Positions 6,433 through 21,195 of a DNA stretch of 21,195 nt are shown here, piece after piece. Position 1 is the first letter of the stretch. Every line of letters starts with the position of its first letter. The DNA comes from a virus. Below the pieces are notes generated by a model. The model saw only the letters and a list, made by a program, of their open reading frames with translations, did no database searches and was not told where the DNA came from. Made by a program: the position numbers and the translations under genes. The stretch spans positions 1 through 21,195 of the IMG/VR virus record IMGVR_UViG_3300037264_002046. One strand, 5' to 3'.

Positions 6433-6677
6433 GCGTCCGGACGATGACCTCGCAGACAGCGACGGTGCGCTGCCCGGTGTGCAACGATCTGCGCGAGATC
6501 AGCGTGCGACAGCGCAGACGCCTGGCCAACAGCGGCAAGACCTTTACGTGCAGCATGTGCCGCTGGGTCCCGCCGAAGATAGAGATCAGAGAAGAGCACC
6601 GGCTCTACTGGCTCGAGCGCTATCCACCCGAATGGATCGCCCAGGTCGGGTCGAGCATTTGGGGCCGACGCACTTGA
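6429..6677 (+). CDS. Small zinc-ribbon protein
   Basis: ATG 6429 overlaps the terL stop as ATGA. The 82-residue product has RCPVCNDLREI and TCSMCRWVPP, two CxxC pairs about 25 residues apart with basic residues between them (SVRQRRRL), the layout of a treble-clef or zinc-ribbon finger. A Trp/Tyr-rich tail follows (RLYWLERYPPEW). The pattern resembles short recruitment-type zinc ribbons and suggests nucleic-acid contact, but no specific role can be assigned. Its stop overlaps the TTG start of the next gene. Confidence 0.6.
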   Translation: MSVRTMTSQTATVRCPVCNDLREISVRQRRRLANSGKTFTCSMCRWVPPKIEIREEHRLYWLERYPPEWIAQVGSSIWGRRT

Positions 6678-7348
6678 TCGCCATCCTGATCCCCGTTCTC
6701 GGTCGTCCGCACCTGATCGAGCCGCTGCTGGAGAACATCGCCAGGGAGACGGACGTCGAGCACCGGGTCCTGTTCATCTGCTCTCCTGGTGACCCGGCAA
6801 CCCTGGTCTGCCAGTCGACAACGGCCGAGACGATCGTCACTCCCTGGCAGCCAGGCCGAGCCGACTTCGCGAAGAAGATCAACCTCGGCTTCACAGCGAC
6901 ATCAGAGGAGTGGCTCTTCCAGGGCGCAACCGATCTGGTCTTCCACCCCCAGTGGGCATCCAGGGGGCTCCGAGCTGGAGTCGGCGCTGGTGTCATCGGG
7001 ACAAATGATCTCGGCAACCCCTCCGTCATGCGTGGGGCGCACGCAACGCATGTGCTCTTCTCGCGGGAGTACATCGATACCTACGGCGGGACCTTCGACG
7101 ACAGCGGAGTCGTTTTCAGCGAGGCATACGACCACCAGTTCGTGGACAACGAGTTCGTGGAGCTGGCGAGGATCAGGGGCCAGTTCCGGCCATGCAAGGT
7201 ATCGGTCGTCGAGCATCTCCATCCGAGCTGGGAGAAGGCCGAGATGGACGACACCTATGAGAAGGCGTTGCGCGAGACCAGGGCGGACATGGCGCTCTTC
7301 AGCCAGCGGATGCGTCGCATGCGGACAGTGCGCGCGAGACGGCGTTGA
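6674..7348 (+). CDS. Glycosyltransferase-like protein, GT-A fold
   Basis: The start is TTG 6674, overlapping the previous stop as TTGA; an upstream reading frame exists but would bury the GT-A N-terminal strand. The 224-residue product begins IAILIPVLGRPHLIEPLLENI, typical of family-2-like enzymes, and has FQGATDLVFHPQW where related proteins usually carry an Asp pair. TNDLGN, HATHV, YDHQFVDNE and VEHLHPSW follow, phrases I associate with a phage glycosyltransferase family. The first Asp of the expected pair is Thr86 here, leaving Asp87. Whether it is still active cannot be judged from sequence. It is tandem with the next glycosyltransferase. Confidence 0.72.
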   Translation: MIAILIPVLGRPHLIEPLLENIARETDVEHRVLFICSPGDPATLVCQSTTAETIVTPWQPGRADFAKKINLGFTATSEEWLFQGATDLVFHPQWASRGLRAGVGAGVIGTNDLGNPSVMRGAHATHVLFSREYIDTYGGTFDDSGVVFSEAYDHQFVDNEFVELARIRGQFRPCKVSVVEHLHPSWEKAEMDDTYEKALRETRADMALFSQRMRRMRTVRARRR

Positions 7349-8007
7349 TCTCGATCTGCGTCGCGACCTGTGGGGATGATCGCTGGCGGCATCTGGCAGC
7401 GAAGCGAGCCGTCCCCTCCGCCCGCAAGCAGGATGTCGAGGTCGTTGTCGAGCACCAGCCTGAGGGCAGCGTGGCCAGCGCTCGCAATCGCGCGGCGGAG
7501 AGAGCGGCTGGTCGCTATCTGATCTTCCTCGATGCCGACGACGAGCTCGGCGCCGGCTACGCAGCGGAGATGGCACAGGCAATCGGAGAGGCGCCCGCGA
7601 TGTACGTACCCCGCGTCTCCTACATCAACGGATACCGCGCCCAGGCACCGAAATACTGGCCCGAGGTATCGCTGCGCGATGGGAACTGGCTGGTGATCGG
7701 CACGATGATGCCGAGGGAAGACTTCCTGTCGGCCGGTGGGTTCGCCTCCTGGGTCGACCTCTATGAAGACTGGCATCTGTTCGCGCGCTTGTGGCGAGAC
7801 GGGATGCCGATCGTCAAGGTGCCGGAGGCGACCTACGTTGCCCACGTCTCGAATGCCAGTCGCAACCGCAACCGCAACCAGGCGGCACGCCTGTTCTGGC
7901 ACCAGAAGATCGGCCACGACGTCTTTCCTGAGCATTACGAGCCGACGCGAGAGACCGAGGACGAGAGACTGGCGCTCGAGGGGACACGACTCCGCTTCGT
8001 CTCCTAG
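7345..8007 (+). CDS. Glycosyltransferase family 2
   Basis: This 220-residue GT-A enzyme opens with ISICVATCGD. It has the nucleotide-binding phrase GSVASARNRAAERAAGRYLIFLDADDEL, in which Asp63-Ala-Asp65-Asp66 is the expected metal-binding DxD. Acceptor-side residues follow around YEDWHLFARLW. Small size with a single catalytic domain and no membrane helix suggests a soluble enzyme. The start TTG 7345 overlaps the preceding stop as TTGA, so it is translationally coupled to the other glycosyltransferase and the pair probably works together. Donor and acceptor are unknown. Confidence 0.85.
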   Translation: MISICVATCGDDRWRHLAAKRAVPSARKQDVEVVVEHQPEGSVASARNRAAERAAGRYLIFLDADDELGAGYAAEMAQAIGEAPAMYVPRVSYINGYRAQAPKYWPEVSLRDGNWLVIGTMMPREDFLSAGGFASWVDLYEDWHLFARLWRDGMPIVKVPEATYVAHVSNASRNRNRNQAARLFWHQKIGHDVFPEHYEPTRETEDERLALEGTRLRFVS

Positions 8008-12939: not shown

Positions 12940-14676
12940 ATGGACGATTCACTGTTTCCTGAGCTTCCGGAGGATCTCACCGAGCTCAGTGACGAAGATC
13001 TGGATGCCCTCCTGGAGGAGCATCAGGTCGCTCTCGGCAAGATCGAGAACGAGGACCCCGAGTACGTCGGCGGCCTGACCGGCCCGGACGTGATCGCAGC
13101 CCTCGAGGTTGGCGTCGATCAGATCAAGACGATCAAGGACGAGAAGCACAACCGCGTCGAGGCCCAGGTGGCGTACTCCGCCAGGAAGGCAGAGCTTCTC
13201 AGCCTTGCCAAGGGCAGCGAGGAAGTGCTCTCGGAGGAGTCGGCCGAAGAGGACGCCGAAGGCGATGGCGACGAGGGCGAGGCCGTCGCGGCGGAGCCCG
13301 AGGAGGCCGCAGCCGAGGAAGAGGTCGTCGAGGAGGAGCCGGTGGTGGTCGCGGCGGCAGAGCCCGCACGCACCTACCGTCGCGCACCGCTCCCGGTGAC
13401 GTCGCCGGAGCGAACGCCGATGGCCAAGAGCGAGCGCACCGTCCTCGTGGCGGCGGCGGGAGCGGACGGCGTCACGCCCGGAGTGGAGCTGGACAGGATC
13501 GGCCTCGCCAACGCGATGGTCGAGCACGTCAAGCGCCGGGCGCGGCCCAGCAAGCACGCCAACGGAACGGAAGAGCGGACGCTGATCGCGTCGGCGCACT
13601 ACAACTTCCCGCCCGAGCGTGTCCTGCGCCCGAACGACATCGAGGGCAACAACTCGAAGATCCGCGCGATCGGCAACCCGTTCCTCGGCGTCGAGGGGAT
13701 CAACTCACTGGTCGCATCAGGCGGCCTCTGTGCCCCGCTGACCCCGCTGTACGAGATCCCCGACTTCGCGGTCACCGACCGCCCGGTCAGGGACGCCCTG
13801 CCGTCGTTCCAGGCAGAGCGCGGCGGCATCTCGGTGCCGTCGGTCTCGACGATCGGCAGCATCACGACAGCGATCTCCGTGATCGAGGAGGCGGACGACG
13901 CGGCTGGCGGGACCTTCGCCACGAAGTCCTGTCAGGACCTGGCGTGCCCCACGTGGACGGACGTTGCGGTGGGCGCGATCAGCCACTGCCGTGAGTACGG
14001 CAACTTCAACGCACGGGCGTGGCCGGAGGGCATCGCGCACGAGAACAACCTCACCATGGCGGCGCACTCACGCACCGCCGAGGAGAGGCTGCTCGACCGC
14101 ATCAAGGCGCTGTCCATCAACGTCACGACGGCGGTCGTCTACGCGACCACGTTCGACCTGATCTACGCGATGGCGCGAGCCGCCGCAGGCGTTCGCTCGA
14201 GGCTCCGCCTCTCGGCAGATCAGGTGCAGTTGCGGGCAATGATGCCGGCATGGATTCTCGAGATGATCCAGGTCGACATCGCGGCCAGCCAGTTCGACCG
14301 CTTCAAGTCGCGCCAGGACGTGCTCAACATCCTGCGTCTGGTCGGAGTGCAGCCGTCGTTCTACCTGGACACGCCCGGCACGGGCACCAGCCAGGCGTTC
14401 GCGGACGAGACGGCCAGCGCGTTGGACGACTTCCCGGACGACGTCCAGTGGGCGCTGTTCGTGGAAGGGGCCTTCCTGCATCTCGACGGTGGCGTGCTCG
14501 AGCTCGGCGTCGTCCGAGACTCGACACTCAACTCGACGAACGACTACCAGGTCTTCGGCGAGACGTTCGAGAACGTGGCTCGCATCGGGCCGACGCAGGG
14601 AGCACTGTGGGTCACCTCCACGGTCTGCCCGTCGGGTGAGTTCCCCGCCACGACCACGGCGCTGTCCTGCGCATAA
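12940..14676 (+). CDS. Major capsid protein with fused scaffold-like N-terminus
   Basis: AAGGAG about 5 bases upstream fixes ATG 12940. The 578-residue product has three parts. Residues 1-90 are helical and acidic (LTELSDEDLDALLEEHQVAL), like a delta/scaffolding domain. Residues about 94-142 are an extreme Glu/Ala/Val-rich linker. The rest, from about residue 160, is an HK97-type capsid body with LRPNDIEGNNSKIR, CAPLTPLYEIPDFAV, a Thr/Cys strand region (SCQDLACPTWTDVAVG), a helix set around MAAHSRTAEERLLDRI, and ILRLVGVQPSFY. The neighbouring protease would be expected to remove the N-terminal part. An ATG at 13420 (MAKSER) marks the start of the body. Confidence 0.85.
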   Translation: MDDSLFPELPEDLTELSDEDLDALLEEHQVALGKIENEDPEYVGGLTGPDVIAALEVGVDQIKTIKDEKHNRVEAQVAYSARKAELLSLAKGSEEVLSEESAEEDAEGDGDEGEAVAAEPEEAAAEEEVVEEEPVVVAAAEPARTYRRAPLPVTSPERTPMAKSERTVLVAAAGADGVTPGVELDRIGLANAMVEHVKRRARPSKHANGTEERTLIASAHYNFPPERVLRPNDIEGNNSKIRAIGNPFLGVEGINSLVASGGLCAPLTPLYEIPDFAVTDRPVRDALPSFQAERGGISVPSVSTIGSITTAISVIEEADDAAGGTFATKSCQDLACPTWTDVAVGAISHCREYGNFNARAWPEGIAHENNLTMAAHSRTAEERLLDRIKALSINVTTAVVYATTFDLIYAMARAAAGVRSRLRLSADQVQLRAMMPAWILEMIQVDIAASQFDRFKSRQDVLNILRLVGVQPSFYLDTPGTGTSQAFADETASALDDFPDDVQWALFVEGAFLHLDGGVLELGVVRDSTLNSTNDYQVFGETFENVARIGPTQGALWVTSTVCPSGEFPATTTALSCA

Positions 14677-14684
14677 GTGACGGA

Positions 14685-14714
14685 ATGAGAGACGACAGGA
14701 AAGGGGCTGAGTAA
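14685..14714 (+). other. Micro reading frame bridging to the next gene
   Basis: ATG 14685 opens a 9-codon frame (MRDDRKGAE) that contains the ribosome binding site region AGGAAAGGGG. It ends in TAA overlapping the next ATG as TAATG. It may be a re-initiation device or chance. Confidence 0.25.
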
Positions 14715-15550
14715 TGTCGACAATCACCTTCGGACCTCCGGTGATGATCGACGGTCCCCTTCCTGTCGCCCCTCCTCGGTCGCTGCTCAAGGTCCCCGGT
14801 GTTCTGCAAGAGAACACCGGGGACCTGCGCTGGATGAACGGAGGGGCGGTCTGGGGCTACCCAGAGGGCCTGCCGCAGACCTGGGACCCCTGCTACACGG
14901 GGACCTTCGAGACCAAGACGGACGCCTACGCAGCGGCCACCCCGGACTTCGCGGCGTTCGTGATCTACCTGCCCGTCGTCTGCTCCTCGTTCTCTCTTGC
15001 CCACGACCCGGAGGGGTTCGGGATGAGGGCGGAGGTTGCCCTGGACGCGATCGCGTCCTACGCCATCGAGGAGGCCCTCTCGCAGGGAGTCCCGATGTCG
15101 GCCAATCCCTTCCTCGCTGACGCCAACGTCACCTTCCCCGCCGGGGCCGGTGCTGTCTCCGTGGCTGCGGGGCGGTCATACCTCGAGGAGGCGATCGGAG
15201 CCACAGCCAGGGGTGGCATGATCCATTTGACCCCAGGGGCAGGCTCCGCTTTCTTCGAGAACGACGGCAGAGACCCGGGGCCGCTATACACGGCTCTCGG
15301 CACGCCGGTTGCTGTCGGCGGCGGGTACGCAGGCGCCACACCGTCCGGCCAGGGCGCGGCAGCCGCCGGCCAGTCATGGGTCTATGCCACCGGACCCGTG
15401 CGGGCCTGGCTGGCAGACGAGGCGATGTTGAACATCAAGGACGTTCTCGACCGATCCAACAATGAAGTGACCTTCAGGGCAGAGCGTTACGCACTCGTCG
15501 AGTGGGATACCGCACTCCAGGCCGCTGTGCTGATCGACTGGACACCCTGA
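14714..15550 (+). CDS. Virion structural protein downstream of the capsid gene
   Basis: AGGAAAGGGG upstream supports ATG 14714. The 278-residue product is Ala/Gly-rich, with an opening Pro-rich stretch, a helical middle (MRAEVALDAIASYAIEEALSQG), then beta-type segments (GTPVAVGGGYAGATP, QSWVYATGPVRAWL) and a C-terminus VTFRAERYALVEWDTALQAAVLIDW. The 'ATGPV ... AER ... D ... AAV' pattern is one I associate with actinophage virion proteins encoded after the capsid, function unassigned. Residues 26-38 are encoded by a perfect 16-bp inverted repeat (listed separately). There is no recognisable enzymatic motif. Confidence 0.65.
   Translation: MSTITFGPPVMIDGPLPVAPPRSLLKVPGVLQENTGDLRWMNGGAVWGYPEGLPQTWDPCYTGTFETKTDAYAAATPDFAAFVIYLPVVCSSFSLAHDPEGFGMRAEVALDAIASYAIEEALSQGVPMSANPFLADANVTFPAGAGAVSVAAGRSYLEEAIGATARGGMIHLTPGAGSAFFENDGRDPGPLYTALGTPVAVGGGYAGATPSGQGAAAAGQSWVYATGPVRAWLADEAMLNIKDVLDRSNNEVTFRAERYALVEWDTALQAAVLIDWTP
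14790..14826 (+). repeat. Perfect 16-bp inverted repeat inside a coding region
   Basis: AGGTCCCCGGTGTTCT (14790-14805) is exactly complementary to AGAACACCGGGGACCT (14811-14826) around the loop GCAAG. It begins 76 bases into the gene after the major capsid protein. No T-run follows, so it is not a classic terminator. It would form a very stable RNA hairpin. Confidence 0.9.
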
Positions 15551-16287: not shown

Positions 16288-16315
16288 CGGAGGGCGGCCG
16301 TCGAGCCGCCCTCCG
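16288..16315 (+). terminator. Strong hairpin, probable terminator
   Basis: CGGAGGGCGGC (16288-16298) pairs perfectly with GCCGCCCTCCG (16305-16315) around CGTCGA, 18 bases after the stop at 16269. A GTCGTTGTG tail follows, with T but no clean run. GC-rich hairpins with poor T-tails are common terminators in high-GC Gram-positive bacteria. Confidence 0.65.
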
Positions 16316-17496: not shown

Positions 17497-17704
17497 CGGC
17501 GACTGGACGGGAAATGTTCACAAAGAAGCCGGCCCCTCTCCGAGGAATCGAGGCGATCGATTGGGGATGGGAACGGGGGCAAACGAAGGGCGAAAGTTGA
17601 GTCTGTTCTCACATTTCGAAACCGAACGAACACTCCCCTTCGCCGGCATTCGCCACTCAGCGGAACGTCCTGACCGGGAGGTTTATCGCGGACAGGGTGG
17701 CTAG
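17497..17704 (+). other. Long untranslated region before the fibre gene
   Basis: No convincing gene is present. It is richer in A and T than its surroundings (for example TTCTCACATTTCGAAACCGAACGA in two parts) and holds an imperfect repeat pair CGAAGGG / CCCTTCG. GGGAGG at 17676-17681 is too far from ATG 17705 to serve it. AGGGTGG at 17694-17700 is the likely ribosome binding site. A 75-codon frame starting in the hairpin loop at 17477 is judged spurious. The fibre promoter probably lies here but was not identified. Confidence 0.5.

Positions 17705-21195
<3,491 letters not shown>

Follow-up and report, generated by a model that had tools for sequence, protein, structure and literature searches.

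A perfect 16-bp hairpin lies in the early codons of the gene after the major capsid gene

What does a perfect 16-bp inverted repeat do inside the gene that directly follows a phage major capsid gene? We addressed this question in an entire 21,195-base IMG/VR virus record (66% G+C; hereafter the window), for which an initial annotation had described a hairpin with a GCAAG loop in codons 26–38 of the open reading frame at 14714–15550. Exact complementarity of the two arms over 16 bp was confirmed. The elements of the hairpin and of the folds around it are the following (all on the + strand):

14790–14805, + strand: 5′ arm of the hairpin, AGGTCCCCGGTGTTCT, codons 26–31 of the gene (termed the pentamer gene below), with the rare codons GGT (0.12) and GTT (0.10)
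14806–14810, + strand: hairpin loop, GCAAG, between the two 16-base arms
14811–14826, + strand: 3′ arm of the hairpin, AGAACACCGGGGACCT, codons 33–38, with pairing retained in the closest relative (L072)
14767–14775, + strand: 5′ strand of an outer stem that encloses the hairpin, CGCCCCTCC, in the predicted fold only
14840–14848, + strand: 3′ strand of the outer stem, GGAGGGGCG, in the predicted fold only
14716–14752, + strand: start-codon-region hairpin, GTCGA..ATCACC / GGTGAT..TCGAC, of which L072 has a perfect 9-bp version

This hairpin is the longest perfect stem in the whole window, its surroundings fold with z = -6.8 relative to dinucleotide shuffles, and 233 kb of related sequence contained no perfect stem of at least 16 bp with a loop of up to 15 bases. 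The next short-loop perfect stem in the window, which is also its second strongest short-loop hairpin, has 11 bp (16288–16315) and directly follows the major tail protein gene. A fold-back assembly artefact was rejected, given that both arms lie in one reading frame and that homologues align on both sides.

The hairpin had been judged unlikely to be accidental on the basis of an expectation of about five per million windows under equal base frequencies. At 66% G+C the expectation rises to 2.3e-5 for a 5-base loop and to 3e-4 for loops of 3–15 bases. Furthermore, synonymous resampling of the encoded peptide (VPGVLQENTGDL) alone yields a mean of 11.7 of 16 pairs, a high value that arises because Pro-Gly codons are near-palindromic, and the probability of all 16 pairs given the protein is 2.3e-4. 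Pairing thus still exceeds chance with the protein held fixed, which upholds the original judgement at a far less extreme level. Rare codons make up part of the arms both here and in L072.

The hairpin-bearing gene is predicted to encode a second capsid protein

To place the hairpin in its genetic context, we assigned the two genes that flank the junction:

12940–14676, + strand: upstream gene, major head protein (phrog_777), related to the actinophage 'major capsid hexamer protein'
14714–15550, + strand: hairpin-bearing gene, PHROG 779, predicted HK97-fold capsid protein, of a family annotated 'major capsid pentamer protein'

The product of the hairpin-bearing gene matches phrog_779 (E 1.5e-28), as does gp12 of Mycobacterium phage Oline (E 1e-122), which is annotated 'major capsid pentamer protein' and adjoins a 'major capsid hexamer protein'; the pentamer name is carried by many relatives among the matches listed (506 matching records). 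PHROG 779 itself is listed with function unknown, and no solved structure related to it by sequence was found. An AlphaFold model of the protein (29 sequences, pLDDT 84) adopts the HK97 capsid fold (Foldseek E 3e-9; VIA Z 13.6 to HK97 and 3jb5 chains), so that a capsid fold is now predicted for this family and the hairpin is predicted to sit in the early codons of a second capsid gene. From homologue annotation and gene order, the protein is probably the vertex (pentamer) subunit.

Icosahedral phages that build hexamers and pentamers from different proteins need a several-to-one ratio of the two from neighbouring genes; by standard geometry, a T=9 shell contains 480 hexamer to 55–60 pentamer proteins. 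The means by which tailed phages fix this ratio are rarely known. The window shares its gene order, PHROG 779 and a junction hairpin with the actinophage pairs Oline gp11/gp12 and Jayden gp28/gp29 and with the Rosebush-like group; the Rosebush capsid shell is T=9 (PMC7150772). In most actinophage hexamer/pentamer pairs the hairpin is intergenic, whereas the window and Jayden-type phages have it inside the pentamer gene.

Pairing is retained in the closest relative

Neither a DNA similarity search with the junction against phage records nor a protein search of species genomes returned relatives. On viral contigs, a single-sequence capsid-protein scan likewise found none, and an alignment-based scan succeeded. 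The closest relative recovered, L072 (IMGVR_UViG_3300048070_000176), shares 79% identity in the capsid protein, 70% in the pentamer gene (protein) and 85% in the tail protein. It is the only close relative with the same hairpin, at the same codons (GTCCCTGGGGTCCT-TC-AGGACCCTGGGGAC).

Compensatory codon changes in homologues had been proposed as the check on selection for pairing, and L072 provides them: all 14 inner pairs are retained, two of them through double changes (one U-A became G-C, the other C-G) and two as G-U wobbles, with no both-side changes in register-slid controls. ViennaRNA forms 13 of these pairs around a UUCA loop. The probability of 13 of 13 pairs given the L072 protein is 1.8e-3, or 1.7e-2 with the codons shared between the two phages also fixed. 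We consider this sequence evidence from a single relative good but not overwhelming.

Hairpins recur at the hexamer-pentamer junction of actinophages

Strong hairpins lie 10–45 nt 3′ of the capsid stop codon in many relatives. Several metagenomic relatives (L073–L078, L080 and L083) have a perfect 11–16-bp hairpin right after the stop codon and no such hairpin in the gene. In L079, L084, L085 and L094, a strong hairpin occupies the same codons as in the window but differs in sequence, and many further relatives (e.g., L082, L088, L091 and L103) have neither an intergenic nor a strong in-gene hairpin. An in-gene hairpin as the ancestral state of the clade was rejected on the grounds that relatives have intergenic hairpins or nothing strong. 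A clade-wide in-gene folding signal is present at codons 22–48 (Stouffer -6.1); it is only moderate, since capsid coding sequence, too, is in general more structured than its synonymous shuffles.

The post-capsid hairpins of L078, L080 and L083 surround both the ATG and the ribosome site of a very short open reading frame (MTNQLAHSLLS.., MTTTSHQSLISP.. and MNQTLLSPAF.., respectively), which may encode a related short peptide or act as a decoy start. Separately, some relatives (L023:3613-3644 and L024) carry 14–15-bp hairpins farther downstream, past the gene that follows the tail gene.

Cultured actinophages, many of which have an intergenic hairpin of 10–20 bp at this junction, show a similar picture: the junction stem is longer than in all 30 shuffles in 12 of 20 named phages. 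Across 12 of these phages, mostly mycobacteriophages, both-side changes with pairing kept occur at 13 of the 18 pairs of the intergenic hairpin. Its loop, CCGAGGCC, is conserved among mycobacteriophages and relatives (L110–L121) and is a possible protein-binding site. In Pumpernickel, the region before the start codon instead pairs with codons about 21–27 over about 17 bp. In ten Microbacterium phages, Jayden among them, codons 12–23 of the pentamer gene contain an independent hairpin of 14–15 bp (P(15/15 | protein) = 1e-5). All ten retain it, with one compensatory change from U-A to A-U that replaces Tyr by Phe as well. The pentamer product of Jayden (L123, 2533–3687) exceeds its relatives in length by about 110 residues; a C-terminal stretch in it resembles tail-fibre families and may serve in vertex decoration. 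We found no published description of such a junction RNA element in the open literature searched.

Predicted pairing between the pentamer ribosome-binding site and early codons of the gene

Upstream of the hairpin, the predicted fold brings together two further strands:

14694–14706, + strand: ribosome-binding-site strand of the pentamer gene, GACAGGAAAGGGG, predicted sequestered, with co-variation over 30 relatives
14756–14767, + strand: anti-ribosome-site strand, CCCCTTCCTGTC, codons 15–18 (DGPLPV region), in the predicted fold

In minimum free energy folds of the start regions of 28 relatives, the Shine-Dalgarno stretch pairs with codons about 13–25 in most cases. Duplex energies between the ribosome-site region and its own gene peak at codons 13–27 (-28.8 vs about -18 kcal/mol elsewhere), and the duplex beats a synonymous null at the 0.05 level in 18 of 30 relatives. 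Own pairs also outperform permuted pairs (z -7.7, 0/20000). A comparison of phylogenetically independent sister pairs confirmed the effect, with own pairing favoured in 14 of 15 (p = 0.0005); the same test gave no own-pairing effect for the tail gene or for any of five coding windows farther downstream. An apparent ribosome-site signal at the tail gene (permutation z -4.6) was rejected, as it is lost in the sister-pair test. Pentamer ribosome-site pairing persists even in L080, L083 and L096, where the gene order differs, with the major tail protein gene placed between those for capsid and pentamer.

For the window itself, partition-function calculations gave the Shine-Dalgarno stretch (14698–14706) a mean unpaired probability of 0.12 with or without the 16-bp hairpin, and closure of the ribosome site is predicted as soon as the transcript extends beyond 14770, again whether or not the hairpin is present. 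A requirement for the hairpin in hiding the ribosome site is thus unsupported, and because sequestration needs no hairpin, it does not account for the hairpin's own role.

A proposed attenuator of pentamer expression and its alternatives

We hypothesize that the hairpin belongs to a cis-acting RNA attenuator by which the pentamer protein is kept below the hexamer protein, a reading to which we give about even chances. It draws on the pairing and its conservation, the recurrence of hairpins at the junction, the predicted capsid fold and the co-varying ribosome-site pairing. Among the functions initially offered for the hairpin (lower downstream expression, stabilization of the 3′ region of the capsid message, ribosome pausing, and binding of a protein or small RNA), lower downstream expression fits best, because the HK97-fold 'pentamer' protein encoded downstream is expected in fewer copies and because sequestration of its ribosome-binding site is predicted, with strong co-variation; the exact in-gene hairpin is absent from most relatives, which have intergenic hairpins or ribosome-site pairing instead.

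In the proposed mechanism, the pentamer ribosome-binding site would fold onto codons 15–18, with the 16-bp RNA helix a few codons beyond. Most ribosomes would stop after the capsid gene, with initiation at the pentamer gene limited by the ribosome-site lock, and since initiation is so limited the long hairpin would remain folded in the under-translated pentamer message. The folded hairpin would then most likely act as a barrier that protects the 3′ side of the capsid message, slows or stops polymerase, or both. The hairpin would be opened occasionally, and limited pentamer protein made, only by ribosomes that restart after terminating at the capsid stop codon 38 nt upstream. Both the reduction in pentamer expression and the step responsible for it are what we infer, and that step could be translation, termination or mRNA stability.

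Attenuators that sequester a ribosome site, and translational coupling, are known from systems such as the coat/replicase junction of RNA phages. As there, the window has a downstream start site folded onto nearby mRNA between two structural genes and a downstream translation predicted to depend on upstream ribosomes; the Shine-Dalgarno stretch is paired in the predicted fold, and this pairing is conserved by co-variation. Unlike the RNA phage case, the window belongs to a tailed dsDNA phage, its anti-site is formed by early codons of the pentamer gene itself and is followed by a separate 16-bp hairpin within that gene, and the system is known from predicted pairing.

More tentatively, the window may represent a widespread and so far undescribed cis-acting RNA element that sets capsomer stoichiometry at the actinophage hexamer-pentamer junction, one that would have shifted repeatedly between intergenic hairpin, in-gene hairpin and ribosome-site lock without a change of function, and that may be bound by capsid protein in some lineages. 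Such a junction RNA is a concrete, testable candidate for ratio control found in many cultured actinophages, and a case of RNA structure conserved within coding sequence.

A rather unlikely account is that the hairpin acts at the transcript level only, as a leaky terminator, polymerase pause, 3′-end stabilizer or RNase III-type processing site that yields more capsid than downstream message independently of ribosome-site folding. The independence of ribosome-site sequestration from the 16-bp hairpin is consistent with this account, as are the strong hairpins past the capsid stop codon in many relatives, some of which (L073–L076) have no ribosome-site pairing, and the second hairpin just past the major tail gene. 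Like an intrinsic (Rho-independent) terminator, the window has a G+C-rich perfect stem (16 bp, above the criterion of at least five pairs) with a short 5-base loop, and this stem follows a gene for which high expression is expected. Unlike such terminators, it lies within a coding region, where ribosomes would open the stem, and no T run follows (GCGCTGGATG comes next), which excludes a canonical terminator. A scan for canonical terminators and promoters made no call at the hairpin or elsewhere on its strand, and neither the window nor 16 related loci had an Rfam 15 match at the gathering score. A purely transcript-level role would also leave the ribosome-site co-variation unexplained.

The main non-functional rival is template-switch mutation, which is able to create and maintain perfect inverted repeats: the near-palindromic codons of the PG...TGD motif would give an imperfect palindrome that a replication template switch perfected, with the L072 pairing inherited or re-templated. 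The 11.7 of 16 pairs predicted by the protein alone are as expected under this reading, as are the weak 6–7-bp pairing at PG/PGD codons in other relatives and the one extra codon that the window has at the hairpin loop, and template switching would itself generate correlated changes. We nevertheless consider it improbable, in view of L072 pairing that survives four changed pairs, the independent hairpin of unrelated sequence inside the same gene of Microbacterium phages, and the many phages with hairpins at the hexamer-pentamer junction.

A putative binding site for a protein (e.g., a capsid protein that represses translation, by analogy with RNA phages) or a small RNA would fit the conserved intergenic loop of the mycobacteriophages, but the loops of the window (GCAAG), L072 (UUCA) and Jayden (CACTC) resemble neither that loop nor each other, making this very unlikely for the hairpin studied here. 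We consider a role at the DNA level, as a cruciform or as a packaging or recombination site, extremely unlikely: the inverted repeat is perfect as DNA, but L072 and the Jayden relatives carry G-U pairs, which are RNA-type, and its position follows the capsid gene end and not a packaging site.

Other features of the window

Elsewhere in the window, open reading frames judged by eye to be glycosyltransferase-like lie among the packaging genes (970–1830 and 6479–8007), and a long low-complexity stretch (17700–21195), probably the collagen-like repeats of a fibre protein, runs off the end of the record.
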